This document shows, piece by piece, positions 3,107-24,940 of a DNA stretch of 49,536 nucleotides (positions are counted from its first letter, which is position 1; each line of letters starts with the position of its first letter). Under the pieces are notes generated by a model. That model was given only the letters and a program-made list of their open reading frames with translations. It made no database searches and was not told where the DNA came from. The translations under genes were made by a program, and so were the position numbers. This DNA is from a virus: positions 1-49,536 of IMG/VR virus record IMGVR_UViG_3300045922_001009, one strand, 5' to 3'.

Positions 3107-4348
3107 ATGAGAATCCTGGTTTATTTGTCGTGCATCGTTTCCCTCTTCGTATTAGGGATGCTCCCCGTGAGTCGGGCACAGGAGCAGACAGGAACTGATC
3201 CGGAGGCCGGCCTGAAGACGCTCGTCCAGGGGAACAACGCGTTCGCCTTCGACCTGTACACCCAACTCGCAAAGCAGAAGGGCAACCTGTTTTTCTCGCC
3301 CCACAGTGTATCGAATGCCTTGGCCGTTGTGCTCGTCGGCGCAAAAGGTGATACTGCCAAGGAGATCGCTAATGTCTTGGGGGTTCAGGGAAACGAGCAG
3401 GACTTTCATAGTTCCTTCTCCAGCCTCAACAAGCGTATACAATCCGCCGCAGACAAAGGCAGTGCGGAACTTTCCATCGCAAACGCATTCTGGCGGCAAG
3501 ATGGGATTGAGTTACGCCCCAGCTTTCTCGAAGACTGCCAGAAGAACTACTCGGTCGAATTCAACAAGTCGGATTTTCTAAACGACTCTGAAGGAGCGCG
3601 CCGGTCCGTCAACGAATGGGCGGAGGCGAAGACGAAGGGCAAGATCAAAGAGTTGCTCAATCCTGGCTCCATCAACAACAAGACCCGCTTCATTCTGGTT
3701 AACGCCATCTATTTCAAGGGGAAGTGGTCGGTCCCGTTCCCCAAGGACTCGACGAAGGAAGCGACCTTCCTTGCCGGCTTCAAGGACCGTGTGCAGGTTC
3801 CTATGATGAACCTGACTCTCATCACCGATTACCATTCTGCGGATGGTTTCCAACTCGTCGCCATCCCGTATGCAGACAATAGACTATCCCTGTATGCTTT
3901 CATGGGAGAAAGCGAAACGGCCCTTCGGGACTTCGAGTCGCGCCTGAGCCCGCGCGTCATCAGCGACCTTCTTGGTCGGATGAAAAAACACGTGGTGGAT
4001 GTGTCGATCCCCAAGTTCCGGCTCGAAGATCATTTCTTCTTGTCCGAACCTCTGGGCCGTCTCGGGATGTCGGAGGCGTTTTCCCTTAATGCGGATCTGT
4101 CAGGGATCGCTGACTCTCGAGAGAAACTGAGGCTGGGTGCCGTTATCCACAAAACCTACCTCGACCTCAATGAAGAGGGCACCGAGGCGGCCGCTGCGAC
4201 GGCGGTCATCGGTGTCAATCCAAGCAGTTTTTCGCAGCCAATCCCCAGGGCAAAGATCGTACTGGACCGGCCATTTCTCTTTTTGATTCGGGACAACGAG
4301 ACTGGGGCTGTGCTGTTCCTGGGGCGGTTGATGAATCCACGGGCTTGA
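3107..4348 (+). CDS. Secreted serpin (serine/cysteine protease inhibitor)
   Basis: This 413-residue protein belongs to the serpin family of suicide protease inhibitors. Residues 1-24 form a Sec signal peptide (cleavage expected after VSRA), so it acts outside the cytoplasm. Family landmarks are NLFFSPHSVSNALA near the N-terminus, NAIYFKGKW, the hinge EEGTEAAAATA before the reactive loop, and the C-terminal DRPFLFLIRDN and GAVLFLGR. The Ala-rich hinge is typical of inhibitory serpins, whose loop inserts into the central sheet. The segment between hinge and DRPF is longer than in alpha-1-antitrypsin, so I cannot place P1-P1' with confidence (region VNPSSFSQP). A ribosome-binding site, GGGAGAG, lies at 3094-3100. 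Base composition is less GC-rich than the prophage genes. Trypsin-like proteases encoded at 4477 and 33448 are conceivable targets, but this is unproven. Confidence 0.93.
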   Translation: MRILVYLSCIVSLFVLGMLPVSRAQEQTGTDPEAGLKTLVQGNNAFAFDLYTQLAKQKGNLFFSPHSVSNALAVVLVGAKGDTAKEIANVLGVQGNEQDFHSSFSSLNKRIQSAADKGSAELSIANAFWRQDGIELRPSFLEDCQKNYSVEFNKSDFLNDSEGARRSVNEWAEAKTKGKIKELLNPGSINNKTRFILVNAIYFKGKWSVPFPKDSTKEATFLAGFKDRVQVPMMNLTLITDYHSADGFQLVAIPYADNRLSLYAFMGESETALRDFESRLSPRVISDLLGRMKKHVVDVSIPKFRLEDHFFLSEPLGRLGMSEAFSLNADLSGIADSREKLRLGAVIHKTYLDLNEEGTEAAAATAVIGVNPSSFSQPIPRAKIVLDRPFLFLIRDNETGAVLFLGRLMNPRA

Positions 4349-4476: not shown

Positions 4477-7400
4477 ATGACATCGCGAAGGAAGCAGAAG
4501 AATGTGCGGACGGCGTGCCGTCAGGCCATCTTGTCTGTCGAGCGCTTGGAGGATCGCATCACTCCCGTGATCGGCAACGGTGCTGCCCCACCGGCTCCTA
4601 TCGCTGCGGGTGGGCTCCTTGCTGGAGGTGTTGCTGGTGAGCTCGATCACGTCGTGCATACCCGCACTGCCAACGGCCTGAATGGCTCTGGTGCGCTCTT
4701 ATCGACGCAACGGCACATCCTCGCGGTAGCTCACACCATTGATGGAACCCAGACTACCATCAACTTCCACATGATGCGAAACCGCGGAGGGGCAGCTGTC
4801 CAGGTTCCCATCACATTCACTCTGCCTGCTGATGCCGCGATGAATCGCTGGCAGGTTCGCGAACCGGGCTATGTACCTGTCGGTGGAGGTGCCCTTCAGG
4901 CCACTAACGACATTGGCATCTTCCGCCTGACTGATCAAGCCAACCCTGCTGCGGATCGATACGTTATCGCCCCCGTTGGCCTGAACAACCTTCGGGGGTA
5001 CGCAATCTCCGGTGTGAACCCGGTGGGTCAAGTGGCGACGTTCGTCGGCTACGGCTTTACCGGGATCGGGAACTGGGGCAATTCGGCCGAAGCAGTTCAG
5101 AACCTCGATCTTAACAATATCCCTGCCGGCGCAGGCAATTTCACGCTCAGCTTCACTCCCCCAGGTGGAGGTGCTGCCCAGGTTACTGGGAATATCAACG
5201 CGGTTGGGCTGACGGCAGCCGGGCTGGCTGCCGCCCTTGAGGCGCTTCCAGCGCTGGCCCCGATTCCTGGGGCAGGTGGGGCACCTCCGACCCGGCAAGT
5301 GGAAGTGATTCGGTGGAACGCCAATCAGTTCTCGGTTCGCTTCATCGGCCCGAATGTCGGAGGGCGGGCGATTGCTCTTATGGTTGCCAACGTGGCACCA
5401 GGGCAAGGGGCCTTCGCTGTCGTCCCGTCTGTCGTTTGGGGTGGCGGATTCACGCCCGCTAAGCGGACGGGGGACCAAACTATCGAGCAGGTTCTCGGCC
5501 TTGCAGGCGTTCCTGCCGCCGTTGCTGCGAACTATGTTGAGGCCGACTTCGACAATGGTGTCGCCGCTCAGAATTCCCTCGGAGGACTGGGGCTTCCAAA
5601 TGAGGGCATGATCGGCCCAGCTGATTCGGGTGGTCCTGCTTTCCGACGCAATGCCGCAAATGCGCTGGAGATCATCGGCATTAACCAAGGATTTTACCGC
5701 ACGGCCAGCCCACCCGACCTCAACAACTGGGTCTTTTCTAACGGCAACGCAGGTCCCGCCGACAGCAGTTTCGGTGAATTCAGTGTCTTCACCGCAGCTC
5801 GCAACTTCAACAACGCGGGGGGGTTCATTGACACGATCACCAACAACCAGCCCTACGACCTGATCCTCGACATGAGTAGGCAGGTGATCGGAGCAGACCT
5901 GGCGGGGGAAAATGTCACGATTAACGTCCGGCGCATCGCGGGTGACGTGGTCATCGAAGTCACCGACCCGCTCGGTGCCTACTCGGGGGTCTATTTCCGC
6001 GATGCCGCCAACCGGATTCGGTCTCTGGAAATCAGGGGGACGAATGACAACGAGACTGTCAACCTGCCGAACAACCTTCTCGGCCCCGGACGGCGGGTCC
6101 GTTTCATCGGCGGTGGCGGTAACGACACGACCAACATTGCCCGCCTGGACGCCGGCAACGGCGGAGATCTGATCGCGTTTAATGGCGGAGACGGGGACGA
6201 CACCCTCAACATCGAAGACCAAGTCGGAAGCGCCGGTCTGGCGTACCTCGTCGCGGCCTCGAGCGTCAGCGCGGCCGACCTCAACATCGACGAGTATGAC
6301 GGCACCGAGCACCTGATGGTCCTTGCCGCTGGCCTCAACGATACCGTTGACGTCAGTGGGCTCTCCACCCAGACCACCATGCTCAACGGCGGCGGCGGGG
6401 ACGATACCATTACCCTGGCTACGTCCTCGACCGTCACTGGGCTGACGGTGGAAGGGGCTGACAGCTATGACCTGCTGGTCGTCGCCTCGGGGTACGTCCC
6501 GAACCCCACCCTGCTCAACCTGGAAGCGATCACCATCACGGGCGGCACGCTCCAACTCGACAATGACCTGACGATCCTCGACTACGACCAGAGCGGCGGG
6601 ACCTTCACCGGGACGGCACATCTGACGGCCAGTTCCTCCCTCGGCTGGTCTGGCGGCACGATGAGTGGCAGCGGGGTTACTACGCTGGCGATGGGAGGTG
6701 CGCTCACTCTTGACGGCGGCACCAAGACCTTGCTGTCGCGGACGCTTGAGAATGGCGGCACGGGGCTCTGGTCCTCCGGCGACATCCTCGGCGGCACCGG
6801 GACGGTCCACAACCTCGCCGGCGCTTCGCTCTCCGGCGTCGGCTTGCTGGAGGGAGCGCTGATCAATGACGGGACGCTTGATCTGGCCAGTGCTGGTGCC
6901 ATCGGCACCATCTCGGTCAACGGTGACTTCACCCAGTCGGGCTCGGGAACGCTCCACATTGACCTCGTCACACCGGGTACGGGATCTGATCGGTTAACGG
7001 TTTCCGAGACAGTCGCCCTCGGCGGCGCCCTGAGCCTTACCCCGCTCTCCGGTTTCTCGGGTGATTCTTTCACGCTCATCAATAACACAGGACCGTTCAC
7101 AGTCATCGGGATCTTCTCGGGACTGCCCGAAGGGTCAGCCGTCTTTCTCAACGGATCTGAGTACCGTATCTCCTATCAAGGGGGTGACGGCAACGACGTC
7201 GTGTTGAATAGAACAGGCTCCGGCGGCTCGGGCGGCAGCCTCGGCGACTTCGTGTGGAACGACGCCGACAACGATGGCATCCAGGACGCCGGGGAGGCAG
7301 GCGTTTTCGGGGTGACGGTCAACCTCCTCGACAGCCTGGGGAACTGGCTCGCCTCGACCACGACCGACGGGACGGGCCACTACCAGTTCGCCGGCCGCCC

Positions 7401-9928: not shown

Positions 9929-9952
9929 GTTACCAACCCGCTTCCTCTCGGT
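9929..9952 (+). repeat. 24-bp direct repeat, copy 1
   Basis: This copy starts GTTACCAACCC and ends TCCTCTCGGT. It matches 9988-10011 at 22 of 24 positions, 59 bp apart. The second copy directly abuts the T-rich run before promoter-like element A, so the pair may be a regulator binding site or part of the integration site. Confidence 0.55.
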
Positions 9953-9987
9953 GCCCCGACTTGCCGGGGAGCGAAACCGTTGGACCG

Positions 9988-10011
9988 GTTACCAATCCGT
10001 TTCCTCTCGGT
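9988..10011 (+). repeat. 24-bp direct repeat, copy 2
   Basis: This is the partner of 9929-9952, differing by two C-to-T changes. It ends 8 bases before the TGCGTAGTT box of element A at 10020. Confidence 0.55.
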
Positions 10012-10019
10012 CATTTTTC

Positions 10020-10063
10020 TGCGTAGTTCGGAACACGTCCGGCAAGGGTCTAGAAGTAGGGGC
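10020..10063 (+). promoter_or_regulatory. Prophage promoter-like element, copy A
   Basis: TGCGTAGTT (10020-10028), nine variable bases, TCCGGCAAGGGTC (10038-10050), six bases, then TAGGGGC. The same layout occurs at 14948 and 27538, each time ahead of a gene block. A T-rich run (ATTTTTC) precedes it. The distance from TGCGTAGTT to GGGTC is 17 bases, as expected for -35 and -10 boxes of an ECF-like sigma factor. Copy A would drive the recombinase cassette. Confidence 0.65.
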
Positions 10064-10147
10064 TTCTCTTCCTCCGCCGGACAGCCGCCGGGCGCGCCGC
10101 GTCGGTTGCTGTGGGCATCTCCCTATTCACCGAGGAGTTGACCGCGC

Positions 10148-10384
10148 GTGCGTCCCGATCTCGACCCGTCTCAAATGACGCCCGACGAGCGCCGCCGCCA
10201 GGCCGTGGCGATTCTCGCCTCCGGCCTGCGCCGGCTCCGCGACCGCGTCGCGCTCGCGGCCGATCCCGTCCATGAAATCCCCTCTCGTTCCGCGTCCGAA
10301 ATCGCGCCGGAAATTCCGTCCGAAGCAGCGGAAAAGTCCCTTGAAGCTGTCCCCGACAACCCGCTCAGTGTCCACGTCGGTTGA
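10148..10384 (+). CDS. Small conserved-looking protein ahead of the DUF2924-recombinase pair
   Basis: This 78-residue, Arg- and Glu-rich protein has the N-terminal segment MTPDERRRQAVAILASGLRR and a Pro/Glu/Ser-rich tail. I chose GTG 10148 because GAGGAG lies ten bases upstream; no ATG at the frame's beginning is better. It has no signal peptide or known domain. It is the first gene after promoter-like element A and precedes DUF2924 and the large serine recombinase. As far as I recall, this arrangement recurs in planctomycetes. It may be a recombination accessory factor (inference). Confidence 0.6.
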   Translation: MRPDLDPSQMTPDERRRQAVAILASGLRRLRDRVALAADPVHEIPSRSASEIAPEIPSEAAEKSLEAVPDNPLSVHVG

Positions 10385-10417
10385 CGGTTTCCGAGACTCG
10401 AGCGAGAGGGACTGCAC

Positions 10418-10915
10418 ATGGGCCTGAACGTCGGGCAGGAGGTCGCCGCGCTATCGCGGATGACCGTGAAGCAGCTCAAGCAGAAGTACGCCGAGGTCTT
10501 CGGCGAGGACACCAACGGCAACAACAAGGCGTGGCTGGTCAAGCGGATCGCCTGGCGGCTCCAGGCGCGGGCCGAGGGCGGGCTGTCCGAACGCGCCCGC
10601 CGGCGCGCGGTCGAACTGGCCGACGACGCCGACCTGCGCCTCAACCCGCCGCCGATGAAGGCGGTCGCGCCGGTCGAGGACGAGGCGCCGGTGCGGGTTC
10701 TGAAGTTCCAGGCCGACGACCGGCTGCCGCCGCCGGGGACGGTCATCACCCGCAAGTACAAGGGCGAGGTGCTGCAGGTCCGGGTGTGGTCGGACGGGTT
10801 CGAGTACGAGGGGAAGGTGTACGCCTCGCTCAGCGCCGTCGCCAAGGCGATCACCGGCAGCCACTGCAACGGCTTTTTGTTCTTCCGCATCGGCGGCAAA
10901 GGGGGTGACGCGTGA
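10418..10915 (+). CDS. DUF2924 family protein
   Basis: This 165-residue protein matches DUF2924. It has an N-terminal helical part (LSRMTVKQLKQKYAEVFGED, then NKAWLVKRIAWRLQ) resembling a SAP-like or DNA-binding helix pair. Its C-terminal beta-rich part contains PPGTVITRKYKGE, GFEYEGKVYASLSAVAKAITG and NGFLFF, the typical DUF2924 end. The family is known from phages and mobile elements beside large serine recombinases. Its biochemical role is not established. Here its TGA overlaps the recombinase GTG by four bases, so the two are probably translationally coupled and may work together. Confidence 0.85.
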   Translation: MGLNVGQEVAALSRMTVKQLKQKYAEVFGEDTNGNNKAWLVKRIAWRLQARAEGGLSERARRRAVELADDADLRLNPPPMKAVAPVEDEAPVRVLKFQADDRLPPPGTVITRKYKGEVLQVRVWSDGFEYEGKVYASLSAVAKAITGSHCNGFLFFRIGGKGGDA

Positions 10916-12507
10916 AGCGCAACGCCAAGAACAACGCCCCCGCCACGCTCGCGCTCGTCCGGTGCGCGGTGTACACGCGGAAGAGTACCGAGGAGGGTCT
11001 GGAGCAGGAGTTCAACAGCCTCGATGCCCAGCGCGAGGCGGGCGAGTTGTTCATCCGCAGCCAGGCGAGCGAGGGGTGGACGGTGCTGGCCGACCGCTAC
11101 GACGATGGCGGCTTCACCGGCGGCAACATGGACCGGCCGGCGCTCAAGCGGCTCATGGCGGACATCGAGGCCGGCAAAATCGACTGCGTGGTGGTCTACA
11201 AGGTGGACCGCCTCTCCCGCAGCCTGCTCGACTTCGCCCAGATGATGCAGACGTTCGACAAGTACAGGGTGTCGTTCGTTTCCGTCACGCAGCAGTTCAA
11301 CACCGCGACCTCGATGGGCCGGTTGGTGCTGAACGTGCTGCTGTCCTTCGCCCAGTTCGAGCGCGAGATCATCTCGGAACGCACCCGCGACAAGATCGCG
11401 GCCACGCGGCGCAAGGGGAAGTGGGCGGGCGGGTGGCCGATCCTCGGCTACGACGTGGACCCGCAGGGGTACAAGTTGAACGTCAACGCGGCCGAGGCGG
11501 AACGGGTGCGGACGATCTTCAACCTCTACCTCGAACACGAGTCGCTCCTGCCGGTGGTCGAAGAACTCGCCAGTCGTGGGTGGACGAACAAACGGTGGCA
11601 GACGCGGAAGGCGGGCGTCCGCGGCGGCAACCGCTTCACCCGGACGAGCCTGTACAAGTTGCTCACCAATGTCGCCTACGTCGGCAAGGTGCGCTACAAG
11701 GACGAGGTCCACGACGGCGAACACGCGGCCGTCGTCGATCCGGTGGTTTGGCAGCGAGTGCAGGCGATGCTGGAGCGGAACGGCCGCGCCGGCGGTGCCC
11801 CGGCCCGGAACAAGTTCGGCGCTCTTCTCAAGGGGATCATCCGCTGTGTCCCTTGCGGGTGCGCGATGACGCCGACGCACTCGACCCGCGACGGCGGGGC
11901 CAGGCGCTACCGCTACTACGTCTGCTCGTCGGCCCAGAAGTTGGGCTGGCACACCTGCGAGTCGAAGTCGGTCCCCGCCGCCCAGATCGAGGAACTCGTC
12001 GTCAACCAGATCAAGGCCATCGGCCAGGATCCGCTTGTCCGGCGGGAGATTCTCGCCGAGGCCCGCCGACAGGACGAGGCCCGCGTCGTGGAACTGGAAA
12101 CCGAGCAGCACGGGCTGGAGCACGACCTCCGCAAGTGGCACAACGAGATGCGGTCGCTGTCGGGCCAGATCAAACCGAACGACGACAACGGCTCGCTCAT
12201 CGCCCGGCTTGCCGAGTTGCAGGAGCGCATCGGCACGGTCGAGGGGCGGGTGCGGAAAATCCACGACCAGATCCACGCCGTCCACCACCAACTGCTCAAC
12301 GAAGACGAAGCCGCACTTGCAGTATCGGTCTTCGACCCGGTCTGGGGAACGCTGTCGCCGCACGAGCAGGCGCGGGTGGTGCATCTGTTGGTTGAGCAAG
12401 TGGACTACGACGGGTCGAAGGGGAAGGTGGCCATCGCCTTCCGACCCGCGGGGATCAAGACACTGGCCCGCGAGCTGGCCGACAAGCGGGAGGAGAAACG
12501 GGCATGA
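10912..12507 (+). CDS. Large serine recombinase (putative phage integrase)
   Basis: This 531-residue site-specific recombinase has an N-terminal resolvase/invertase catalytic domain with the nucleophile Ser25 in VYTRKSTEEG, later VYKVDRLSRS, and the long helix LSFAQFEREIISERTRDK. Next come a recombinase DNA-binding domain (GYDVDPQGYKLN, then RTSLYKLLTNVAYVGKVRYK), a zinc-ribbon domain (IIRCVPCGCAMTPTHS, then YVCSSAQ, HTCES) and a C-terminal coiled coil. This is the usual layout of large serine integrases, which join attP and attB without supercoiling. GTG 10912 overlaps the upstream TGA. A downstream HTH gene is likewise coupled by ATGA. Such enzymes usually need a directionality factor, and the coupled small proteins are candidates. 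Confidence 0.93.
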   Translation: MKRNAKNNAPATLALVRCAVYTRKSTEEGLEQEFNSLDAQREAGELFIRSQASEGWTVLADRYDDGGFTGGNMDRPALKRLMADIEAGKIDCVVVYKVDRLSRSLLDFAQMMQTFDKYRVSFVSVTQQFNTATSMGRLVLNVLLSFAQFEREIISERTRDKIAATRRKGKWAGGWPILGYDVDPQGYKLNVNAAEAERVRTIFNLYLEHESLLPVVEELASRGWTNKRWQTRKAGVRGGNRFTRTSLYKLLTNVAYVGKVRYKDEVHDGEHAAVVDPVVWQRVQAMLERNGRAGGAPARNKFGALLKGIIRCVPCGCAMTPTHSTRDGGARRYRYYVCSSAQKLGWHTCESKSVPAAQIEELVVNQIKAIGQDPLVRREILAEARRQDEARVVELETEQHGLEHDLRKWHNEMRSLSGQIKPNDDNGSLIARLAELQERIGTVEGRVRKIHDQIHAVHHQLLNEDEAALAVSVFDPVWGTLSPHEQARVVHLLVEQVDYDGSKGKVAIAFRPAGIKTLARELADKREEKRA

Positions 12508-12923
12508 CACCCACAACGCCATTGAAAATCGAGTGTGACGTTCACTTCGACCGCCGGGGTCGGGGGAGCCGCAAGGTGCTGGAAACCGGCCCCAGGCCGT
12601 TCCGCCCGGCCGAACCGGGGCGCGTGCCCCGCGTCGCCCGCCTCATGGCGCTGGCGATCCGGTGCGACGGGCTGATCCGGGACGGTGTGATCGAAAACTA
12701 CACCGAGATCGCCCGGCTCGGGCACGTCACCCGCGCCCGCGTCAGCCAGATCATGAACCTGCTCAACCTCGCCCCGGACATCCAGGAGGCGATCCTGCAC
12801 CTGCCGCGCACCGAGACCGGCCACGCGCCGATCATCCTCGCGGACCTCCAGCCGATCGCCTCGACCCTCGACTGGCGGAAGCAGCGAAAACTGTGGCACG
12901 AACTGAACGAGGTCCGGTTGTAG
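12504..12923 (+). CDS. Small HTH protein (KorB/ParB-type helix-turn-helix)
   Basis: This is a 139-residue protein whose centre (YTEIARLGHVTRARVSQIMNLLNLAPDIQEAIL) reads as a helix-turn-helix of the ParB/KorB kind: recognition helix RARVSQIMN followed by LLNLAP-IQEAIL. It has no ParB nuclease-like N-terminal domain. Its ATG overlaps the recombinase stop (ATGA), so it belongs to the integration cassette. It may bind near the attachment site as an accessory or directionality factor, or regulate the cassette. The sequence itself shows only DNA-binding potential. Confidence 0.72.
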   Translation: MTPTTPLKIECDVHFDRRGRGSRKVLETGPRPFRPAEPGRVPRVARLMALAIRCDGLIRDGVIENYTEIARLGHVTRARVSQIMNLLNLAPDIQEAILHLPRTETGHAPIILADLQPIASTLDWRKQRKLWHELNEVRL

Positions 12924-12956
12924 GGGCGGCCCGTCCAAATTCCGCACCCGGCACGC

Positions 12957-12986
12957 TTGACGCCGAGCAATTTATAAGTCTAATAT
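12957..12986 (+). promoter_or_regulatory. Candidate sigma-70 promoter of the lexA-like repressor gene
   Basis: TTGACG (12957-12962) and TAATAT (12981-12986) are 18 bases apart, 72 bp before the repressor start, in an AT-rich island within GC-rich DNA. The -10 box lies inside a 14-bp perfect palindrome, as expected for autorepression. Confidence 0.6.
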
Positions 12987-12993
12987 ATATTAG
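12980..12993. promoter_or_regulatory. Palindromic operator candidate for the LexA-like repressor
   Basis: CTAATATATATTAG is a perfect 14-bp palindrome covering the -10 box of the repressor promoter. A half-site-like CTCTAAT follows at 12994-13000. It does not resemble the E. coli CTGT-N8-ACAG box or the Bacillus GAAC-N4-GTTC box, so if used it represents a different specificity. Confidence 0.55.
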
Positions 12994-13057
12994 CTCTAAT
13001 TTCGGGCGTCTGCCCGGTTCCGGCTCGTTGTCCCCAGGACAACCGAGGGCGACCAGC

Positions 13058-13717
13058 ATGAGCGACAGCAAAAAGCGACGCGGTCGGCCCCCCGTCGAAA
13101 CGCTGACCGACCCGCAGCGCCGGGCGTTCCGCGCCGTCAGCGCGTTCCTCGCCCGCCACGGGTTCCCGCCGACCGCCCAGGAGTTGGCCGACGCCCTCGG
13201 CATCGCCGCGCCCAGCGCCCACGCGCTCGTGGGCCAGTTGGTCCGCAAGGACTACCTCAAGCGCGAGTCCCGCAAGGCCCGCGGGCTAACCATCGTCCGC
13301 GAGATCGACGACCTCCCCAGCAAACTGGTGGCGGTGCCGATCGTGGGTCGCGTGGCGGCCGGGCAGCCGATCCTGGCCGAGGAAAACATCGTCGGGGAGG
13401 TTCTGGTCGAGAACACAGTGGTGCGCGGCGCGTCGTGCTTCGCGCTGCGGGTGGCGGGGCAGAGCATGGTCGATGCGGGGATCGCCGACAAGGACCTGGT
13501 CATCGTCCGGCGGCAGCTCATCGCCGAGAACGGGGACATCGTCGTGGCCCTCATCGGTGAGGAGGCGACGGTCAAGCGACTCTCCATCCGGGGGCCGCGC
13601 ATCGAACTGTGCCCGGAGAACCCCAAGTTCAAACCGATCGTCGTCGGCCTCGACGACGAGCTGCGGATCCTCGGGAAGGTGGTGGCCGTCCGCCGCGCCG
13701 ACCGTTCTCCGGAGTGA
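13058..13717 (+). CDS. LexA-type self-cleaving transcriptional repressor
   Basis: This 219-residue repressor has an N-terminal winged HTH (LTDPQRRAFRAVSAFLARHG, PPTAQELADALGI, SAHALVGQLVRKDYLKRE) and a C-terminal S24 peptidase domain. The cleavage bond is Ala101-Gly102 (RVAAGQP). The catalytic dyad is Ser136 (GQSMVDAG) and Lys173 (EATVKRL). RecA-stimulated self-cleavage would inactivate it, linking prophage induction to DNA damage. ATG 13058 begins the first segment with LexA similarity; the frame upstream is open but lies across the promoter. The palindrome at 12980-12993 is a likely operator. It may be a phage repressor rather than the host LexA, given its position between integrase and sigma genes. 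Confidence 0.9.
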   Translation: MSDSKKRRGRPPVETLTDPQRRAFRAVSAFLARHGFPPTAQELADALGIAAPSAHALVGQLVRKDYLKRESRKARGLTIVREIDDLPSKLVAVPIVGRVAAGQPILAEENIVGEVLVENTVVRGASCFALRVAGQSMVDAGIADKDLVIVRRQLIAENGDIVVALIGEEATVKRLSIRGPRIELCPENPKFKPIVVGLDDELRILGKVVAVRRADRSPE

Positions 13718-13873
13718 GGCCGGGCCCGTCCGCAGGATTGGCACGTGCCGAAGACGGACGCGACGCATTCCGGGCTTCGGAGGTGTCGTCGAGCGTTTCG
13801 GGCCGAGGACGGCATGTCGTGTGCGCAACGGACTGGCATTCATCTGTGAGCCTGATTCGAACGGAGTGGTTTC

Positions 13874-14200
13874 ATGTCGGTTGCCCGCAAATCATCCCTT
13901 TCCCCGGCCCGGTGCCGGCTGCTGGAATTGATGCAGTCCATCGGCTTCGGCCGGATCGAGAACCTGATCGTCCGCGGCGGCGAACCGGTCTTCCGCCCGC
14001 CGCCTTACGTGGTTCGTGAGTTCAAGCTCACCAGCGACGATGACGCGGACCCCGAAGGCGCGGCCGCGGATTTCGAGTTGAAGGCGCAGGTGGTGCGCTT
14101 GTTCCGCCGGCTCGACAAGCTCGGCGACGGCCTGGTGGAAATGCTCGAGATCAAAGACGGTCTCCCGTTCAAACTCGTGATCGAGGGGGTTGAGGCGTAA
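13874..14200 (+). CDS. Small unrecognised protein in the prophage control region
   Basis: The product is 108 residues, beginning MSVARKSSLSPARCRLLELM. It is mixed alpha/beta with a central GFGRIENLIVRGGEPVF-PPP segment and ends in an acidic helical part (KAQVVRLFRRLDKLGDGLVEML). It has no Cys motif, membrane segment or known domain. It sits between the LexA-like repressor and the sigma factor, with 156 bp of featureless DNA upstream. A regulatory role is plausible only from position. Confidence 0.62.
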   Translation: MSVARKSSLSPARCRLLELMQSIGFGRIENLIVRGGEPVFRPPPYVVREFKLTSDDDADPEGAAADFELKAQVVRLFRRLDKLGDGLVEMLEIKDGLPFKLVIEGVEA

Positions 14201-14264
14201 TCGCGGCTCGCAGCCGACTGACAACTGGGTTTATCTTCCGTCACCAGACATTTCGCTGACCGCC

Positions 14265-14322
14265 AAGCGGAGGCACTTGTGGGCGACGCCGATTTCGGCG
14301 TTATCTCGCATGGCCTCCGCTT
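14265..14322 (+). other. Nested stem-loop ahead of the sigma-factor gene
   Basis: AAGCGGAGGC (14265-14274) pairs perfectly with GCCTCCGCTT (14313-14322). Inside, ACGCCGA (14286-14292) pairs with TCGGCGT (14295-14301). The inner hairpin and the following ATCTC resemble the hairpin at 27441-27465 after the terminase gene. It may be a terminator-like or attenuator structure between the upstream small gene and the sigma gene. Confidence 0.45.
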
Positions 14323-14384
14323 TGCGTTCTTGCGCCGGTCGTCGTGGCCCACGCCTCTTCCTTCGCGGTCGGAGGAGGGAACGC

Positions 14385-14954
14385 ATGGTCCGTCACGACC
14401 AGATCATCACCGACCGGTTCACGCGCGGCATCATCCGCCGCAAGGTTCGCGAACTCATCGACGGCTCCGGCTTTCGCGAGGAGGACGCCGAGGAACTGGA
14501 GCAGCGACTCGTGTACCTGCTGTTGCGGAGTCTGCGCTCGTTCGAGGAATCACACCCCCGGCACCGCAACGCCTTCATTACGACCGTGGTCGAACGATCG
14601 GCGGCCATGATCCGCCGCGAGCGGCGACGACGGAAACGCCATTTCGGCGCGGTCCAGTCGCTCGATTCACTCCCGACCAGCGGGAATGACGGTGCGGTCG
14701 AGGTGAGCCTGCACGTCGCCGATCCGGGCGCACGCCGCACGTTTACGCAGGTGGACCTCGCGCTCGACCTGGCCGTGATCCTGGCGGAGCTGCCCGACGA
14801 GTTGCGTGACCTGGCCCACCGCCTCCAGCGGCAGACGCTCACTGAGATCGCCCGCGAAGCGAACCTGCCGCTGACCACGGTCCAACGACGCCGCGAACGG
14901 CTCCGCGACCGCCTCGCACACGTCTGCGGAACATTTTTTCGTAATCCTGCGTAG
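14385..14954 (+). CDS. Sigma-70-like (ECF-type) sigma factor encoded by the prophage
   Basis: This 189-residue protein has the two-domain plan of minimal sigma factors. The sigma-2-like part spans DAEELEQRLVYLLLRSLRSF through the basic FITTVVERSAAMIRRERRRR (DNA melting and -10 recognition). The C-terminal sigma-4 HTH is LPDELRDLAHRLQ and TLTEIAREANLPLTTVQRRRERLRDRL. ATG 14385 is preceded by GGAGGAGGGA at 14371-14380, an excellent ribosome-binding site. The gene's stop codon lies inside promoter-like element B, which precedes the replication genes. It therefore probably directs RNA polymerase to the three repeated elements A, B and C (inference). Confidence 0.8.
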   Translation: MVRHDQIITDRFTRGIIRRKVRELIDGSGFREEDAEELEQRLVYLLLRSLRSFEESHPRHRNAFITTVVERSAAMIRRERRRRKRHFGAVQSLDSLPTSGNDGAVEVSLHVADPGARRTFTQVDLALDLAVILAELPDELRDLAHRLQRQTLTEIAREANLPLTTVQRRRERLRDRLAHVCGTFFRNPA

Positions 14955-14990
14955 TTTCGCACCGCTCCGGCAAGGGTCAGAGATAGGGGC
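14948..14990 (+). promoter_or_regulatory. Prophage promoter-like element, copy B
   Basis: TGCGTAGTT (14948-14956), nine variable bases, TCCGGCAAGGGTC (14966-14978), five bases, TAGGGGC (14984-14990). A T-run (ATTTTTTC) lies just upstream. The stop codon of the sigma gene is the TAG inside the first box. Copy B precedes the replication operon beginning at 15018. Confidence 0.68.
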
Positions 14991-15017
14991 CGCCGAGACG
15001 CGAGGAACCGAGCAGCC

Positions 15018-15314
15018 ATGACGCTCTACCGCTACACGTTTCAGGCCGACGTGCCGGCCGCGGAAGTCCAGGCGACACTGCTTCTGGCCTACGTCGCCGT
15101 CGAGGGGCTGCACGGCGAGGCGCAGACCCGCCTCGACGCCGGCCACGCCCTCGGCGGCCAGTTCGGCGCATGTGTCATCGACACGAGCACGCCCGTCGGC
15201 CGCGACCTCGCCAAGGTGTTCACGGCGTTCTTGCGCCGCGAGTTCGGCGAGGACAGCTTCCGCGTCGAATCGCTTCAACCGATCCAACCCATCACCCCGG
15301 AGATGACTGCGTGA
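15018..15314 (+). CDS. Small unrecognised protein, first gene of the replication block
   Basis: The protein has 98 residues and starts MTLYRYTFQADVPAAEVQATLLLAYVAVEGL. A predicted beta strand, a helix with a conserved-looking LHGEAQTRLDAGH, then AKVFTAFLRREFGEDSFRVE follow. I recognise no family. It is the first gene downstream of promoter-like element B, and its TGA overlaps the GTG of the ATPase gene (GTGA), so it is coupled to recombination genes. A structural or accessory role in replication or recombination is likely by context. Confidence 0.68.
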   Translation: MTLYRYTFQADVPAAEVQATLLLAYVAVEGLHGEAQTRLDAGHALGGQFGACVIDTSTPVGRDLAKVFTAFLRREFGEDSFRVESLQPIQPITPEMTA

Positions 15315-16102
15315 CTCGCCTGGCAACGATTCAGAAGGGCCGCACGCCGAAGCCGCCGCGCCTGCTCGTGTACGGGACCGAAGGCATCGGGAAGAGTTCC
15401 TTCGCGGCGCAGGCCCCGCGTCCGATCTTCGTGCAAACCGAGGACGGCCTCGACGAGATCGACACCGACAAGTTCCCACTGGCCGAGAGCTACGAGGACG
15501 TCGTCGAATCGCTGACCGCGCTGGCGGCCGAGGACCACCCCTACGAGTCGGTCGTGATCGACTCGCTCGACTGGCTCGAGCGGCTGATCTGGGACCGCGT
15601 CTGCCGCGACGCCAACGTGACGAGCATCGAGAAGGCCGACGGCGGCTACTCGAAGGGCTACACCCACGCACTCACCTACTGGCGCGAAATCCTCGACCTG
15701 CTCAACACCCTGCGGGCCGCGAAGAACATGGTCGTGCTGCTCATCGCGCACACCAAGGTCGAGAAGTTCGAGGACCCCGAGTCGAGCCCCTACGACCGCT
15801 ACTCGCCCCGTCTGCACAAGCACGCGTCGGCGCTCGTGTGCGAGTGGTGTGACGCCGTGCTCTTCGCCACGCGGAAACTCCGCACCCAGAGCGAGGACGC
15901 CGGGTTCGGCCGCAAGCGCACCATCGCCAAGGCGATCGGCAGGGACGGCGGCGACCGCGTGCTGCGTGCCGTCGGCGGGCCGAGCTGCGTGGCGAAGAAC
16001 CGCTACGGGATCACGGAAGAACTGCCGCTCGACTGGGCGGCGTTCATGACCGCTCTTTCCAACCCATCCAACCAACCCACCGAGGAGGACTCCAATGGCT
16101 GA
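15311..16102 (+). CDS. Phage AAA ATPase, Sak4/RecA-like nucleotide-binding protein
   Basis: This 263-residue P-loop protein has the Walker A motif GTEGIGKSS near residue 28, Walker B VVIDSLDWLE, and a later VVLLIAHTKVEKFE strand typical of RecA-fold phage proteins (AAA_24 group, Sak4-like). Such proteins promote single-strand annealing or recombination together with an SSB-like partner. I chose GTG 15311, which overlaps the upstream stop (GTGA). The next gene, a DUF669 protein, overlaps its end by eight bases. DUF669 proteins are frequent neighbours of these ATPases, which supports a shared recombination function. Confidence 0.85.
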   Translation: MTRLATIQKGRTPKPPRLLVYGTEGIGKSSFAAQAPRPIFVQTEDGLDEIDTDKFPLAESYEDVVESLTALAAEDHPYESVVIDSLDWLERLIWDRVCRDANVTSIEKADGGYSKGYTHALTYWREILDLLNTLRAAKNMVVLLIAHTKVEKFEDPESSPYDRYSPRLHKHASALVCEWCDAVLFATRKLRTQSEDAGFGRKRTIAKAIGRDGGDRVLRAVGGPSCVAKNRYGITEELPLDWAAFMTALSNPSNQPTEEDSNG

Positions 16103-16577
16103 CCTGCGCGGATTTGACGCCAACGCCGTGGAACCGTCGAGCGACTTCGACCCGCTCCCGGCGGGCAAGTACCTCGCCGTCATCACCGAGTCGGAGATGA
16201 AGCCGACCAAGTCCGGCTCCGGGCACTACCTACAGTTCACGTTCGAGGTGATCGACGGGCCGTACAAGGGCCGCTACCTGTGGGCGCGGCTCAACCTCGA
16301 CAACCCCAACGCCACCGCGGTGCAGATCGCGAAGGCCGAACTGTCGGCCGTGTGCCGGGCGGTGGGCGTGCTGGCCCCGAACGACTCCACCGACCTGCAC
16401 GACCTGCCGCTGGTGATCCACGTGAAGTGCAGGAAGCGGCCCGACACCGGCGAGGTCGCCAACGAGATCAAGGGCTACTCGCCCAAGGCCTCGCTCGCCG
16501 AGTCGACCGCGCCCACCAGGCCCGCGGCCGCGCCCGCGGCGAGCGGCAAGCCGACCACGCCGCCGTGGAAACGCTGA
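16095..16577 (+). CDS. DUF669 family protein, putative phage ssDNA-binding partner
   Basis: This 160-residue protein shows the DUF669 pattern. An N-terminal LPAGKYLAVITESEMKPTK segment is followed by GHYLQFTFEVIDGPYKGRYLWARLNLDNPNATAVQIAKAELSAVCRAVG, a beta-barrel then helix. The C-terminus is a Pro/Ala-rich disordered tail ending in PPWKR. Tails like this occur in single-stranded DNA-binding proteins and recruit partners. It overlaps the ATPase gene by 8 bp. A role as SSB-like cofactor of the Sak4-type protein is established for relatives only by association. Confidence 0.8.
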   Translation: MADLRGFDANAVEPSSDFDPLPAGKYLAVITESEMKPTKSGSGHYLQFTFEVIDGPYKGRYLWARLNLDNPNATAVQIAKAELSAVCRAVGVLAPNDSTDLHDLPLVIHVKCRKRPDTGEVANEIKGYSPKASLAESTAPTRPAAAPAASGKPTTPPWKR

Positions 16578-16654
16578 TCGCAGTCCCCTGACGCACGTTC
16601 ACCCGGTGCCCCCGCGCCGGGCCGTGGCCGCCACCATTCCTCACGAGTCACCCC

Positions 16655-17230
16655 ATGCAACTGGAACTGCCATACCCGCCCAGCGTCAACCACCTGTGGC
16701 GGCGGGTCGGCCACCGGACGCTGTTGAGCCGTCGCGGACGCGCGTACCGTCGCCAAGTTCACAACCTCCTCGTCGCCGGCCGCGTTCGACCGCTGGAAGG
16801 CCGCCTCGCGGTCACGGTGGAGGTTCACCCGCCGGACCGCCGCCGCCGCGACCTCGACAACCTGCAAAAAGGCTTGTTCGACGCGATGCAGCACGCCGGC
16901 GTCTTTCTGGATGACTCGCAGATCGACGAGTTGCACATCCTCCGCTGTGAGTGCGTTCCGGGCGGTCTCGTGCGGGTGTGCGTGATGCCGCTGACCGCGA
17001 CCGAGCCGGAGGCGGTCGCGAAACCCGAACCGGAGGTGAACCCGCACGTCAAGCAGCGGACCTGCCTGAAGTGCGGGAAGTTCTTCAACTCGCGTGGGGC
17101 GGGGAACCGCATCTGCTCGCCGTGCCGCCGCGAGAACAACCGGCTGGACCTGAGTGAGGCGGAGGTGCAGAAGCAGCGGGGCGTCAAGCGTCACAACGGC
17201 GAGCTTCTTCACCCATCCGAGGAGTGCTGA
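16655..17230 (+). CDS. rusA: RusA-type Holliday-junction resolvase with C-terminal zinc ribbon
   Basis: Residues 1-115 of this 191-residue protein form a RusA endonuclease: MQLELPYPPSVNHLWRR at the start and the acidic active site DRRRRDLDNLQKGLFDAMQ with the later LDDSQID. RusA resolves four-way junctions made during phage recombination. Normal RusA is about 120 residues long. Here an extra C-terminal domain with CLKCGKFF and CSPCRREN (four Cys) forms a probable zinc ribbon, then HNGELLHPSEEC. The extension may aid DNA binding. The gene is followed after 6 bp by the helicase gene. Confidence 0.88.
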   Translation: MQLELPYPPSVNHLWRRVGHRTLLSRRGRAYRRQVHNLLVAGRVRPLEGRLAVTVEVHPPDRRRRDLDNLQKGLFDAMQHAGVFLDDSQIDELHILRCECVPGGLVRVCVMPLTATEPEAVAKPEPEVNPHVKQRTCLKCGKFFNSRGAGNRICSPCRRENNRLDLSEAEVQKQRGVKRHNGELLHPSEEC

Positions 17231-17236
17231 AGAGCC

Positions 17237-18925
17237 ATGATACTGCGGCCTTACCAGCAAGACGCTATCGCCGCGGTGTACGACCACCTGCGGACCCGCG
17301 ACGACAACCCGTGCGTGGTGATCCCCACCGCCGGCGGCAAGACGCCCGTCATCGCCTCGATCTGCAAGGACGCGGTCGGGCTGTGGGGCGGGCGCGTGCT
17401 GATCCTCGCGCACGTCAAGGAGTTGCTGGAACAGGCCGCGGACAAGCTGCGGGCGGTCTGCCCCGAGGTGCAGTTCGGCGTCTACTCCGCCGGGCTGAAG
17501 CGCCGGGACCGCCGCGACCCGGTCATCGTCGCCGGCATCCAGTCGGTCTGGAAGAAGGCGTGCGAGTTCGACCCGTTCGACCTGGTGGTGATCGACGAAG
17601 CTCACATGATCGCACCCGACGGCGACGGGATGTACCGGCAGTTCCTCGCCGACGCCAGGACGGTCAACCCGTACCTGCGGATCGTCGGCTTCACCGCGAC
17701 GCCGTACCGCCTGAAGTCGGGCACCATCTGCACGCCGGACGGTTTCCTCAACCACGTGTGCTACGAGGTCGGCGTTCGCGAGTTGATCGTGCAGGGCTTC
17801 CTGTGCCCGCTGGTCACCAAGGTCGGCATCAACAAGCCCGACGTGGACAACCTCCACATCCGGGGCGGTGAGTACGTTGCCGGCGAAGTCGAGGACCTGA
17901 TGGATCAGGACAACCTCGTTGAGGCGGCGTGCGGCGAGATCGTCGGCTACACCGCGACGCGCAACGCGTGCCTGATCTTCGCCAGCGGCGTCCATCACGG
18001 CGAACACATCGTCCGTGTGCTGAAGGACAAGCATGGTGTCGAGTGCGGCTTCGTCACGGGCGACACACCGCCCGCCGAACGTGATGCCATCCTCGCGCGG
18101 TTCAAGTGCGGTGGGCTGAAGTACCTGTGCAACGTCAACGTGCTGACGACGGGCTTCGACGCGCCGCACATCGACTGCGTGGCGATCGTGCGGCCGACGC
18201 TCTCACCGGGCCTCTACTACCAGATGGTCGGGCGGGGTTTCCGCCTGCACCCGTCGAAACGCGATTGCCTCGTCCTCGACTTCGGCGGCAACGTGCTGCG
18301 GCACGGGCCGGTCGATCAGATCCGCGTGAAGGAGCGCGACGGCGGAACCGGCCTGCCACCCGTGAAGGAGTGCCCGGAGTGCCACACGGTCGTGATGGCC
18401 GGGCGCGCGGCGTGCCCCGATTGCGGTTACGAGTTCCCGCCACCGGAGCGTTCGAAGCACGACGCCAAGCCGTCGGACGCGGGGATTCTCTCCGGCCAGG
18501 TGACGGTCGAGACGTTCGCGGTTCACGACGCGGTCTACAGCGTCCACACCAAACGCGGCGCGGGCGACGATGCGCCCAAGAGCCTGCGGGTCGATTACAA
18601 GGTCGGCTGGCACCGCTGGAAGTCGGAGTGGGTCTGCCTCGAACACACCGGCTACGCGCGGGGCAAGGCGGTCGCGTGGTGGAGGAAGCGGTCGAAGATG
18701 CCGGTGCCGGCGACGGCAGCCGAGGCGGTCGAGATTGCCAAAGCCGGCGGGCTGGCCGACACGAAGTCGATCACCGTGCGCTCGGTCAGCGGCGAGGACT
18801 ACGACCGCATCACCGATCACCAGCTCGGGCCGATCCCCGAAGCGGTCGAGCCCGCGGCACCGGAAGAAGAACTCTTCCCGTTCGGGTACAACGTGGCGCC
18901 CACGGAGGAGAAAATTCCGTGGTGA
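17237..18925 (+). CDS. Superfamily-2 DEAD/DEAH-type helicase with zinc ribbon
   Basis: This 562-residue helicase of the SSL2/UvrB-like phage group has N-terminal Q-type LRPYQQDAI, Walker A PTAGGKT (residues 30-36), DEAH at 120-123, FTATPYR (motif III), LTTGFDAPHID (motif V) and QMVGRGFRLH (motif VI). A four-Cys zinc ribbon follows (CPECHTVV, CPDCGYEF near 375-395). The C-terminal 170 residues are unassigned (VDYKVGWHRWKSEWVCLEHTGYARGKAV). It is probably the origin-melting or replicative helicase of the phage. Its stop overlaps the primase GTG by four bases. Confidence 0.9.
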   Translation: MILRPYQQDAIAAVYDHLRTRDDNPCVVIPTAGGKTPVIASICKDAVGLWGGRVLILAHVKELLEQAADKLRAVCPEVQFGVYSAGLKRRDRRDPVIVAGIQSVWKKACEFDPFDLVVIDEAHMIAPDGDGMYRQFLADARTVNPYLRIVGFTATPYRLKSGTICTPDGFLNHVCYEVGVRELIVQGFLCPLVTKVGINKPDVDNLHIRGGEYVAGEVEDLMDQDNLVEAACGEIVGYTATRNACLIFASGVHHGEHIVRVLKDKHGVECGFVTGDTPPAERDAILARFKCGGLKYLCNVNVLTTGFDAPHIDCVAIVRPTLSPGLYYQMVGRGFRLHPSKRDCLVLDFGGNVLRHGPVDQIRVKERDGGTGLPPVKECPECHTVVMAGRAACPDCGYEFPPPERSKHDAKPSDAGILSGQVTVETFAVHDAVYSVHTKRGAGDDAPKSLRVDYKVGWHRWKSEWVCLEHTGYARGKAVAWWRKRSKMPVPATAAEAVEIAKAGGLADTKSITVRSVSGEDYDRITDHQLGPIPEAVEPAAPEEELFPFGYNVAPTEEKIPW

Positions 18926-23326: not shown

Positions 23327-23755
23327 TCAGGCCTCCCCGTTGAGGGCGAACTTGCCACGCTCCGTCTTGGCGAACCGGGCCTCCTTCCCCTTGGCGGTGA
23401 TCTCGCGCAGGATGGCGGCGTAGAGGGTCGCGTGCGGGGTCTTCCCGCCGGGGGTCGTCCAGTACCCCTTGCTCGCCATCGCCTCGATCATCTCCTTGGC
23501 GTTCATCGCGCTGCCCGCCTCGCCGAGGACCTTGGCGGCGGCGTCGAGGGCGCTCATCTTCTTCGGCTTCTCGGCGCGGGCCTTCCTGGTCTTGGCGGGC
23601 TTGGCATCCGCGGCCTCGGCCGGCGGGGTGGTCGCCTCCGGGGTCTTCGCGGGCTCCTCGACGGCGGGCGTCGCGTTCTTGGCGGCCTTCGGCTTCTTGC
23701 CCCCGGTGGCCTTCTTCGGGGCGGGGGAACTCTTCGTGGTCTTCTTCGCGGTCAT
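23327..23755 (-). CDS. HARE-HTH domain protein with Lys/Ala-rich N-terminal tail
   Basis: This is a 142-residue protein. Residues 1-65 are a basic, Lys-Ala-Pro-rich, histone-like tail. Residues 68-142 form a HARE-HTH winged helix ([59 protein letters not shown]). HARE-HTH domains occur in RNA polymerase delta, ASXL and restriction-associated proteins. I chose ATG 23755; the open frame upstream runs into ribozyme element 1. It is the last gene of the minus-strand block. A DNA-binding, possibly transcription-modulating, role is inferred. Confidence 0.82.
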
Positions 23756-23780
23756 GGTCGTCGCTCCGGGTCGATGGGGT

Positions 23781-23840
23781 TGGCTGCCATCATCAGGCGG
23801 CGGGAGCCACCCGCCGCGACGCCCGCGGGGGCGTTTCGGC
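23781..23840 (-). ncRNA. Type II hammerhead ribozyme-like element 1
   Basis: Read on the minus strand, GCC-GAAAC is followed by the stem III hairpin (GCCC/GGGC), GTC, the stem I hairpin (GCGGCGGG, loop TGGCT, CCCGCCGC), CTGATGA, one extra T, then GGC, which pairs with the initial GCC (stem II). All conserved hammerhead core bases are present. Cleavage is predicted 3' of the C at 23818. Loop TGGCT is complementary to the downstream AGCCA, suggesting a pseudoknot. It starts one base after the stop codon of the gene ending at 23842. Confidence 0.82.
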
Positions 23841-23841
23841 T

Positions 23842-24069
23842 TCAATCGTTGACCGGGACCGTCACGATCTGCCCGTGGTGGTCGCACAGGTACGCGAACT
23901 CCACCCGGGCGGTCGCCAACCACTCCGCGTCCTGGTCGCGGACCACCAGGCTCCGGCCGCCCAGCCGGATCGCCCGGCCGCCGTGCGCGCGGGCGTGCTC
24001 GATCGCCTCGCGGGCGGTGGGGAACTCGGTCACCTCCAACTCGATCGTCACCGGCTTCGGCGGGTTCAT
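23842..24069 (-). CDS. Small unrecognised protein in the ribozyme-spaced block
   Basis: The protein has 75 residues, beginning [31 protein letters not shown], with a predicted beta-alpha-beta-beta pattern and ending [10 protein letters not shown]. It has no Cys cluster, signal peptide or membrane segment. The start is supported by GAGGAG nine bases upstream on the minus strand. It lies between ribozyme-like elements 1 and 2, whose cleavage would give it a separate transcript. Its function is unknown. Confidence 0.7.
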
Positions 24070-24090
24070 CGTTCCGCTCCTCGGGGTTCG

Positions 24091-24154
24091 GTGGCTGCCG
24101 TCATCAGGCCCGGCCCGCCACGGCCGGGCGACGCGGGACGTCCCGCGTTTCGGC
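24091..24154 (-). ncRNA. Type II hammerhead ribozyme-like element 2
   Basis: The layout is the same as element 1 but the stems differ. Stem III is the palindrome GCGGGACGTCCCGC between GAAAC and GTC. Stem I is GCCCGGCC/GGCCGGGC with loop GTGGCG, followed by CTGATGA, an extra C and GGC pairing with the initial GCC. The stems differ from copies 1 and 3 at many positions while keeping perfect pairing. Loop GTGGC complements downstream GCCAC. Predicted cleavage is 3' of the C at 24130. It begins directly after the TGA at 24155-24157. Confidence 0.85.
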
Positions 24155-24406
24155 TCAGGTCGGGAACCGCCCGAGGCAGAGGTCGCCTCGCCCCGCCTCC
24201 ACGAACAGCACGCCCGCGTCGTTCCCCTCCTCGTCGCAGGCGGCGTAGGCGACGGTCCCGTCGTCGAACTCCAGCACGGCCGGCCGGTGCGACCACCCCA
24301 GGTCCGCCGCCTCCGCGGCCGGCATGTACCCGACCCGCACCACCCGCCGGCCGACCAGCATCGCCGCGGCCGCGTCCGTCACCTTGCGCTCCGTTTGTGC
24401 CGACAT
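24155..24406 (-). CDS. Small unrecognised protein in the ribozyme-spaced block
   Basis: The product has 83 residues, beginning MSAQTERKVTDAAAAMLVGRR. The rest is beta-rich (VVRVGYMP, HRPAVLEFDDGTVAYAACDEEGNDAGVLFVE), suggesting a small beta-barrel. I chose ATG 24406, preceded by a GGGGGA sequence; an in-frame ATG at 24436 would place the start within ribozyme-like element 3. No family is recognised. It lies between elements 2 and 3. Confidence 0.68.
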   Translation of the reverse strand: MSAQTERKVTDAAAAMLVGRRVVRVGYMPAAEAADLGWSHRPAVLEFDDGTVAYAACDEEGNDAGVLFVEAGRGDLCLGRFPT

Positions 24407-24423
24407 GCTCGTCCCCCGTTGTT

Positions 24424-24492
24424 TGGCTGCCGTCATCAGGCGGCGGGAACCACCCGCCGCGACACCTTCCCGCGTGGGGAAGGCGTTTCGGC
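24424..24492 (-). ncRNA. Type II hammerhead ribozyme-like element 3
   Basis: On the minus strand: GCC-GAAAC, stem III CCTTCCC/GGGAAGG closed by AC-GT pairs and a G-T wobble, GTC, stem I GCGGCGGG (loop TGGTT) CCCGCCGC, CTGATGA, an extra C, then GGC pairing with GCC. Stem III is longer than in copy 1 and unrelated in sequence. Loop TGGTT can pair with downstream AGCCA using one wobble. Predicted cleavage is 3' of the C at 24461. The element starts one base after the stop of the gene ending at 24494. Confidence 0.84.
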
Positions 24493-24493
24493 T

Positions 24494-24817
24494 TCAGCAC
24501 CCGAAGACGTGTTCGGCCAGGCCCGCGGCGAGGAAGTCCACCACCCGCGCCGCAGCCGCGTCGGCCGCGGGTACGTCGGGGCCGCGGTCCCAGTTGAACA
24601 CCACCGCCCGGTCGGCCAGGCGCTGCACCCACAGCTTCGAGATGCCGCTGTCGCCCAACTCCCAGGCCGGGTTCTCGGCGTGGTCGCGGAAGACCAGCGC
24701 CTCGAACCGGTGCCCCGCGACCCGGCCGGCGATCCAGGTGCCCGCGCAGCCGGGGCGGGGGTTGAGGTGGGTGAAACTCAGGTCGTCGCCGAACTCCGCA
24801 TCTTCGGTGCGCATCAT
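24494..24817 (-). CDS. Small unrecognised protein, first gene of the minus-strand block
   Basis: This protein of 107 residues starts MMRTEDAEFGDDLSFTHLN. It contains a central AGHRFEALVFRDHAENPAWELGDSGISKLWVQR and VFNWDRGPD, and ends with a helix (AARVVDFLAAGLAEHVF). It has no known motif. I chose ATG 24817, with GGGAG upstream; an earlier in-frame ATG at 24850 is at the edge of the divergent operator region. As first gene of the block it is probably transcribed from the 24820-24940 region. Confidence 0.7.
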   Translation of the reverse strand: MMRTEDAEFGDDLSFTHLNPRPGCAGTWIAGRVAGHRFEALVFRDHAENPAWELGDSGISKLWVQRLADRAVVFNWDRGPDVPAADAAAARVVDFLAAGLAEHVFGC

Positions 24818-24850: not shown

Positions 24851-24889
24851 CCCGCGAACGTGTGATGACAGTTACAGCCGGTTCGCGGG
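24851..24889. promoter_or_regulatory. Inverted repeat in the divergent control region
   Basis: CCCGCGAAC (24851-24859) and GTTCGCGGG (24881-24889) are perfect inverted copies 21 bases apart, in the only divergent intergenic region of the prophage. The spacing, centre to centre about 30 bases or three helical turns, fits a dimeric or tetrameric regulator. It may control the minus-strand block, the packaging genes, or both. Confidence 0.5.
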
Positions 24890-24940
24890 ACAGGGAAGCG
24901 AATCCGGCCCGAATTCCTGAGAGTTTTCGAGGTTTCCGAC

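Follow-up and report, generated by a model that had tools for sequence, protein, structure and literature searches.

Three elements that covariance model, sequence core and fold support as type II hammerhead ribozymes, with self-cleavage predicted for each of them, lie in all three gaps between the four genes of a minus-strand operon in a tailed phage, and we consider it probable that they act as gene separators through which one transcript would be converted into four single-gene mRNAs. The DNA analyzed here (the window; 49,536 nucleotides) is the entire IMG/VR virus record IMGVR_UViG_3300045922_001009, possibly itself a fragment; a search of the whole record returned the same three ribozymes.

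When the window was scanned with cmscan against all Rfam models, Hammerhead_II (RF02276) was matched on the minus strand at positions 24421-24493 (48.6 bits, E 4.9e-7), 24089-24155 (61.0 bits, E 2.8e-10) and 23778-23841 (53.0 bits, E 3.5e-8). All three scores exceed the Rfam cut-off for this family, a gathering threshold of 37 bits; at this threshold nothing beyond the three Hammerhead_II elements was found in the 49.5 kb, and 14 control genomes gave no such hit. Re-reading of the sequence bore out the core segments, their order, strand and coordinates, and the cleavage positions reported in the first-pass annotation. In the order of transcription, ribozyme 1 occupies positions 24424..24493, ribozyme 2 positions 24092..24155 and ribozyme 3 positions 23781..23841, all on the minus strand; each contains CUGAUGA, GAAA and GUC, and cleavage is predicted to occur after nucleotide C17 of GUC, located at the plus-strand coordinates 24461, 24130 and 23818, respectively.

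The fold of these elements conforms to the type II class. Stem III is closed and comprises 10, 7 and 6 base pairs in ribozymes 1, 2 and 3, with the A-U pair A15.1-U16.1 as its first pair; stem I is closed as well and has eight pairs in every copy, and stem II (GCC/GGC) is the open one. Loop I carries the motif UGGY, which by eye has the potential to pair with the GCCA of the tail in all three copies, and a loop I/tail pseudoknot is a known trait of published type II hammerheads (PMC3088659). We also collected 133 distinct sequences that were picked on their core letters alone: both stems form in 111 of them (0.3 would be expected with shuffled stems), 87 different stem I sequences are represented, and in 127 a loop I motif is able to pair with an AGCC tail. 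Hence, the letters change while the pairing stays. The stem I sequences of copies 1 and 3 are nearly identical, and the same sequence recurs in many other phages. Covariance model, core, stems, loop I/3′-tail pairing and conservation across many phages, in which the core of the homologous elements is retained, collectively support the identification as type II hammerheads that had been made from the letters alone.

The ribozymes separate four genes, with one ribozyme in each of the three gaps. The first gene of the operon, gene A (24494..24817, minus strand), encodes a DUF7678 protein (Pfam PF24726, E 4.4e-10) with a 90% identical homolog in the Gemmataceae contig L160. It is followed on the same strand by gene B (24155..24406; 83 amino acids) and gene C (23842..24069; 75 amino acids), neither of which belongs to a known family; a 93% identical homolog of B is likewise placed between two hammerheads in L077/L306, and a 56% identical homolog of C is found immediately before a hammerhead in the Gemmatales locus L144. 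The operon ends with gene D (23327..23755, minus strand), whose product combines a HARE-HTH domain (Pfam PF05066, E 2.1e-10) with a tail rich in lysine, alanine and proline; homologs of gene D are present in 62 ribozyme-bearing loci. In all three gaps, 0-1 nt separate the preceding stop codon from the ribozyme, and 17-25 nt remain between the ribozyme and the ATG that follows, so that each copy indeed almost fills its gap, as first noticed, and the space left suffices for scarcely more than a ribosome-binding site. Since the gaps are taken up by the ribozymes, a separate intergenic promoter would need to sit within a gene or within a ribozyme. A candidate promoter block [CTTn(C/G)TGT ... TGTAACTG; approximate limits 24865..24925, minus strand] is located in front of gene A. 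It weakly matches the block GCTTGmTGT...GGTAACTG, which in several relatives stands before the leading gene of the operon irrespective of the identity of that gene, and a standard sigma-70 promoter scan gave no match. We also considered the AUG of the ribozyme core as a hidden start codon (CUGAUGAUGG), a notion that was rejected: in a sample that includes many related Streptomyces phages, this AUG is in frame with the downstream start preceded by a Shine-Dalgarno sequence in 92 of 172 copies with an extra core base and in only 82 of 277 copies without it, and in the window it is in frame for copy 1 only.

Three ribozymes are thus arrayed among four genes in a record that carries terminase, portal, head protease, tape measure and primase genes, the equipment of a tailed phage, and the set therefore qualifies as a tandem phage hammerhead array. 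The operon is transcribed opposite to its neighbors, which are genes for a nucleoside-deoxyribosyltransferase-like protein and a ParB-methyltransferase on one side and the terminase and portal genes on the other. A serine recombinase gene is present, and the left end harbors glycosyltransferase, FkbM, SdrD-type and serpin genes; this suggests that the record represents an integrated copy that includes some bacterial DNA. The serpin gene is full-length (3107-4348, plus strand; Pfam E 6.9e-111) and lies beside a large gene for an SdrD-type repeat protein; both are probably host DNA or cargo. Relatives of the phage were located in Planctomycetota assemblies, and, among named relatives, the closest one that shares gene A and terminase with the window (about 90% identity) resides in a Gemmataceae assembly (L160), so that the host is likely a planctomycete bacterium. 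Our search of the literature found no relevant link between hammerheads and planctomycetes. The prophage status that had initially been taken for granted is therefore likely, given the recombinase, the bacterial-type genes and the provenance of the relatives.

The most informative evidence for a function comes from relatives that were chosen blind to ribozymes. A search with the HARE-HTH protein yielded four loci only, and several of the peptide patterns fell within its low-complexity tail; we therefore resorted to the terminase protein and kept 80 of 534 matches. The HARE-HTH gene and the gap upstream of it were measurable in 49 loci, which correspond to 41 clusters at 95% terminase DNA identity. 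When this gap was at least 560 nt long, and hence held at least one gene, a ribozyme was present in 28 of 30 clusters; when it was shorter, a ribozyme was present in one of 11, and this exception (L316; 549 nt) does hold a small gene. The association between gap size and ribozyme (Fisher P 6e-7) was computed with a 560-nt line that had been set after the gaps were seen. In the loci that were checked with Rfam, no match was found in the HARE-to-terminase gap of those scored as lacking a ribozyme, and matches were found in the others. Two loci, L383 and L337, have upstream genes without a ribozyme.

On the terminase tree, the fewest changes that explain the distribution are five for the gene state and seven for the ribozyme state, and the sister loci L312, which has neither gene nor ribozyme, and L317, which has both, differ in the two states. 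In a phylogenetic independent-pairs sign test, all informative pairs pointed in the same direction or were neutral, with a maximum of five pairs that placed significance out of reach. The promoter-like block is found directly before the HARE-HTH gene when this is the first gene (L312, L314, L307, L332) and before the intervening gene in L316, L323 and L325. Nine sequence families, two of which are represented by the window's B and C, account for the genes that precede the HARE-HTH ribozyme, which is consequently not bound to one particular cassette gene. These data suggest that HARE-HTH is preceded by the ribozyme hardly ever except where transcription first passes through another gene. Two relatives that lack a hammerhead before HARE-HTH have one at a distance of over 1 kb further downstream, on the same strand (L349:3882-3952 and L374:1232-1302, both minus strand), so that the ribozyme is used at other junctions there.

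Among the near relatives, the layout of the region (H, hammerhead) ranges from HARE alone to A-H-HARE (L160), Y-H-HARE (L123, L136, L162), Y-C-H-HARE (L144, in which one junction has no ribozyme), X-H-B-H-HARE (L306) and the A-H-B-H-C-H-HARE of the window. Ribozyme 3 is the copy that keeps its place before HARE-HTH in relatives, and the window array looks as if gene-plus-ribozyme units had been assembled ahead of an unvarying H-HARE part. The Gemmatales assembly KatS3mg105 contains four loci of such phages (L123, L136, L144, L162), each with a hammerhead before HARE-HTH.

The placement between genes extends to type II hammerheads at large. In 503 of 569 distinct sequences of our collection, a same-strand stop codon lies just before the ribozyme and a start just after it, compared with 38% at random places and with 219 sequences when the opposite strand is considered; this collection was fetched by ribozyme patterns and is phylogenetically non-independent, so that it informs on position and not on frequency. 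The commonest distances from stop codon to ribozyme are 0 and 1 nt, with a second peak at 15-17 nt that is mainly of the Streptomyces phage type. Several records contain far larger arrays. In L305 (IMGVR_UViG_3300017605_000570, record positions 9932-17520), 24 type II hammerheads over the Rfam cut-off separate small genes almost singly in less than 8 kb; many stop codons continue straight into stem II (TAAGC-GAAAC, TGAGC-GAAAC), and several starts follow right after the tail (GCAGCCAATGA). The array of L184/G012 numbers 24, and seven type II hammerheads are present in about 4.4 kb of L089 (IMGVR_UViG_2744054895_000001, record positions 89751-94135), all of them with an extra core base. Eleven copies over the cut-off in Streptomyces phage Paedore (L042) and nine in Streptomyces phage R4 (L391) are dispersed among small genes; both phages are cultured, and we found no relevant report on their hammerhead arrays in the literature. 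Two tiny annotated genes of R4, gp75.1 and gp67.1 (L391:3898-3999 and 6855-6947), overlap hammerhead sequences and are probably annotation errors.

One deviation from the usual type II core is consistent in the window. Stem II commonly follows directly after A9, a trait that does not define the class; in all three copies, a single nucleotide is interposed at this position (position 10), a tolerated variant. The C, C and T reported earlier are present, and C10 characterizes ribozymes 1 and 2, U10 ribozyme 3. Such an extra base occurs in 197 of the 569 collected type II hammerheads and is U in 173, A in 19, C in four and G in one, with most of the C10 cases contributed by the window phage and L077, a near relative; in these two, C10 is found in the copy that precedes gene B. 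Its reading as unpaired holds for the hammerhead fold and not for the predicted minimum-energy fold, in which an alternative GCCG/CGGC pairing would join the extra base to G12, the catalytic guanine of the hammerhead. The predicted probability of the C10-G12 pair is 0.92 in copy 1 and 0.95 in copy 2, versus 0.02 for U10 in copy 3, and the C10-G12 fold is better than the hammerhead fold by about 2 kcal/mol in copies 1 and 2; in copy 3, too, the lowest energy belongs to another fold than the hammerhead, with a difference of 0.5 kcal/mol. An extra A occupies the corresponding position, between A9 and G10.1, in the plus-strand hammerhead of the viroid CChMVd; in the work of De la Pena and Flores (2001), according to the account given in PMC3705267, replacing it by U raised the trans-cleavage rate three to four times, and C or G were strongly detrimental. 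The ranking of bases at position 10 in the phage ribozymes fits this viroid biochemistry. Because C10 is detrimental in CChMVd and captures the catalytic G12 in our folding predictions, we predict slower cutting by copies 1 and 2 than by copy 3, the one next to HARE-HTH, bearing in mind that the thermodynamic model leaves out the pseudoknot and that the viroid ribozyme is of a different hammerhead type.

In the mechanism that we favor, a single minus-strand transcript would begin ahead of gene A and continue via B and C to HARE-HTH; each ribozyme would fold and cut once after GUC, giving rise to four single-gene mRNAs, the internal two of which would be 331 and 312 nt long. That ribozyme presence tracks the upstream gene in relatives supports such cutting of one transcript. 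Because neither stem I nor stem III is open in type II hammerheads, both new ends would carry a hairpin: upstream products would end with stem III and a 2′,3′-cyclic phosphate, and downstream products would start with stem I and a 5′-OH. Such ends may explain why type II is used between genes. The main beneficiary would probably be the HARE-HTH gene, with its mRNA freed from whichever gene precedes it. Somewhat less than even chances attend a more specific proposal for this group of planctomycete phages, namely that the hammerhead is a dedicated HARE-HTH separator, kept behind any upstream gene and missing where a promoter drives HARE-HTH directly, that the base at position 10 may tune its speed (U10 at the HARE junction, C10 at the accessory junctions of the window), and that cutting may be linked to the end of translation at the stop codon next to the ribozyme.

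Other readings of the same data have to be weighed against gene separation. That the elements are chance or non-functional look-alikes is hardly credible, with E-values from 5e-7 to 3e-10 in 49.5 kb, three elements within one operon, and conservation in relatives. The hammerheads could be mainly linkers for gene shuffling, at which cassettes are swapped by homologous recombination and self-cleavage is incidental or tolerated; near relatives do differ by entire gene-plus-ribozyme units, the stem I sequence nearly shared by copies 1 and 3 recurs in many other phages, and a cassette that brings its own ribozyme would likewise yield the association between gene and ribozyme. We nevertheless regard this as improbable, since a pure linker has no need for 87 different stem I sequences that still pair, and the ribozyme before HARE-HTH is found behind several unrelated gene families. 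Slightly less probable still is regulated cutting, gated by a ligand or by a ribosome that terminates at the abutting stop codon and whose footprint would cover stem II and GAAAC, so that cleavage would report translation of the upstream gene. In the window, 0-1 nt separate the stop from stem II, and 0-4 nt do so in those HARE-region copies with a called upstream gene, and stops run into stem II throughout the L305 array; tight packing of phage genes, however, produces identical spacing, the second peak at 15-17 nt does not conform to such gating, and an extra ligand-binding domain was not seen.

A partly decayed array, with a functional U10 copy and two C10 copies that are slow or inactive and being lost, overlaps with gene separation rather than excluding it, and we view it as possible but rather doubtful. 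It would account for the rarity of C10 (four of 197 bulged ribozymes, mostly from the window phage and L077), and it accords with the viroid substitutions as reported in PMC3705267 and with the high C10-G12 pairing probabilities; yet the C10 copies keep stems, core and pseudoknot intact, the ribozyme before gene B has the C in two phages alike, and the gap of just about 2 kcal/mol to the hammerhead fold could be overcome by loop contacts. Separation of genes is the reading that we retain.

Much of this setting has precedents. Perreault et al. (2011; PMC3088659) described prophages in which type II hammerheads cluster around single genes, with a triple among them, and proposed a role in mRNA processing; transcripts of the tandem hammerheads were cleaved in vitro, and the Agrobacterium tumefaciens triple was also cleaved in Escherichia coli. 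Three in a row, initially regarded as unusual, is thus a published arrangement, and our own collection contains arrays of 9-24. The window copies share with RF02276 representatives the core, the open stem II, the closed stems I and III, the loop I/3′-tail pseudoknot and the phage setting (PMC3088659), but differ from the usual type in their three-base-pair stem II and the one extra base after A9. As in the A. tumefaciens triple around ardA and the tandems of Clostridium scindens and Azorhizobium caulinodans, several hammerheads separate single genes in a prophage-type operon (PMC3088659); unlike those sets, for which cleavage was demonstrated, the window array is assigned to another host phylum, involves DUF7678, B, C and HARE-HTH genes, and has its cleavage predicted. 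The extra base is at the identical core position as in CChMVd (via PMC3705267), with C, C and U in the phage instead of the A of the viroid. In the Streptomyces phages R4 and Paedore, as in the window, type II hammerheads are arrayed among small genes and some of them carry an extra base at this position, but nine and 11 copies exceed the Rfam cut-off there instead of three. Published work thus covers the type II hammerhead itself, its occurrence in clusters and triples around single genes of phages, and the proposal of mRNA processing (PMC3088659), and the extra base has its viroid precedent; the present analysis adds the conserved association with HARE-HTH, the dependence of the ribozyme on an upstream gene, the preference for certain bases at position 10 and the much larger arrays elsewhere.

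The role of hammerheads in phages is still called an open question (PMC6155905). The locus and its relatives amount to a natural experiment on this question, in which the same gene is found with and without an upstream gene and with and without a ribozyme, and its outcome supports gene separation. The data on the extra base tie a viroid result from 2001 to about 200 phage ribozymes and predict which copies would be fast and which slow, and the cultured Streptomyces phages with at least nine copies make in vivo tests of these ideas possible.
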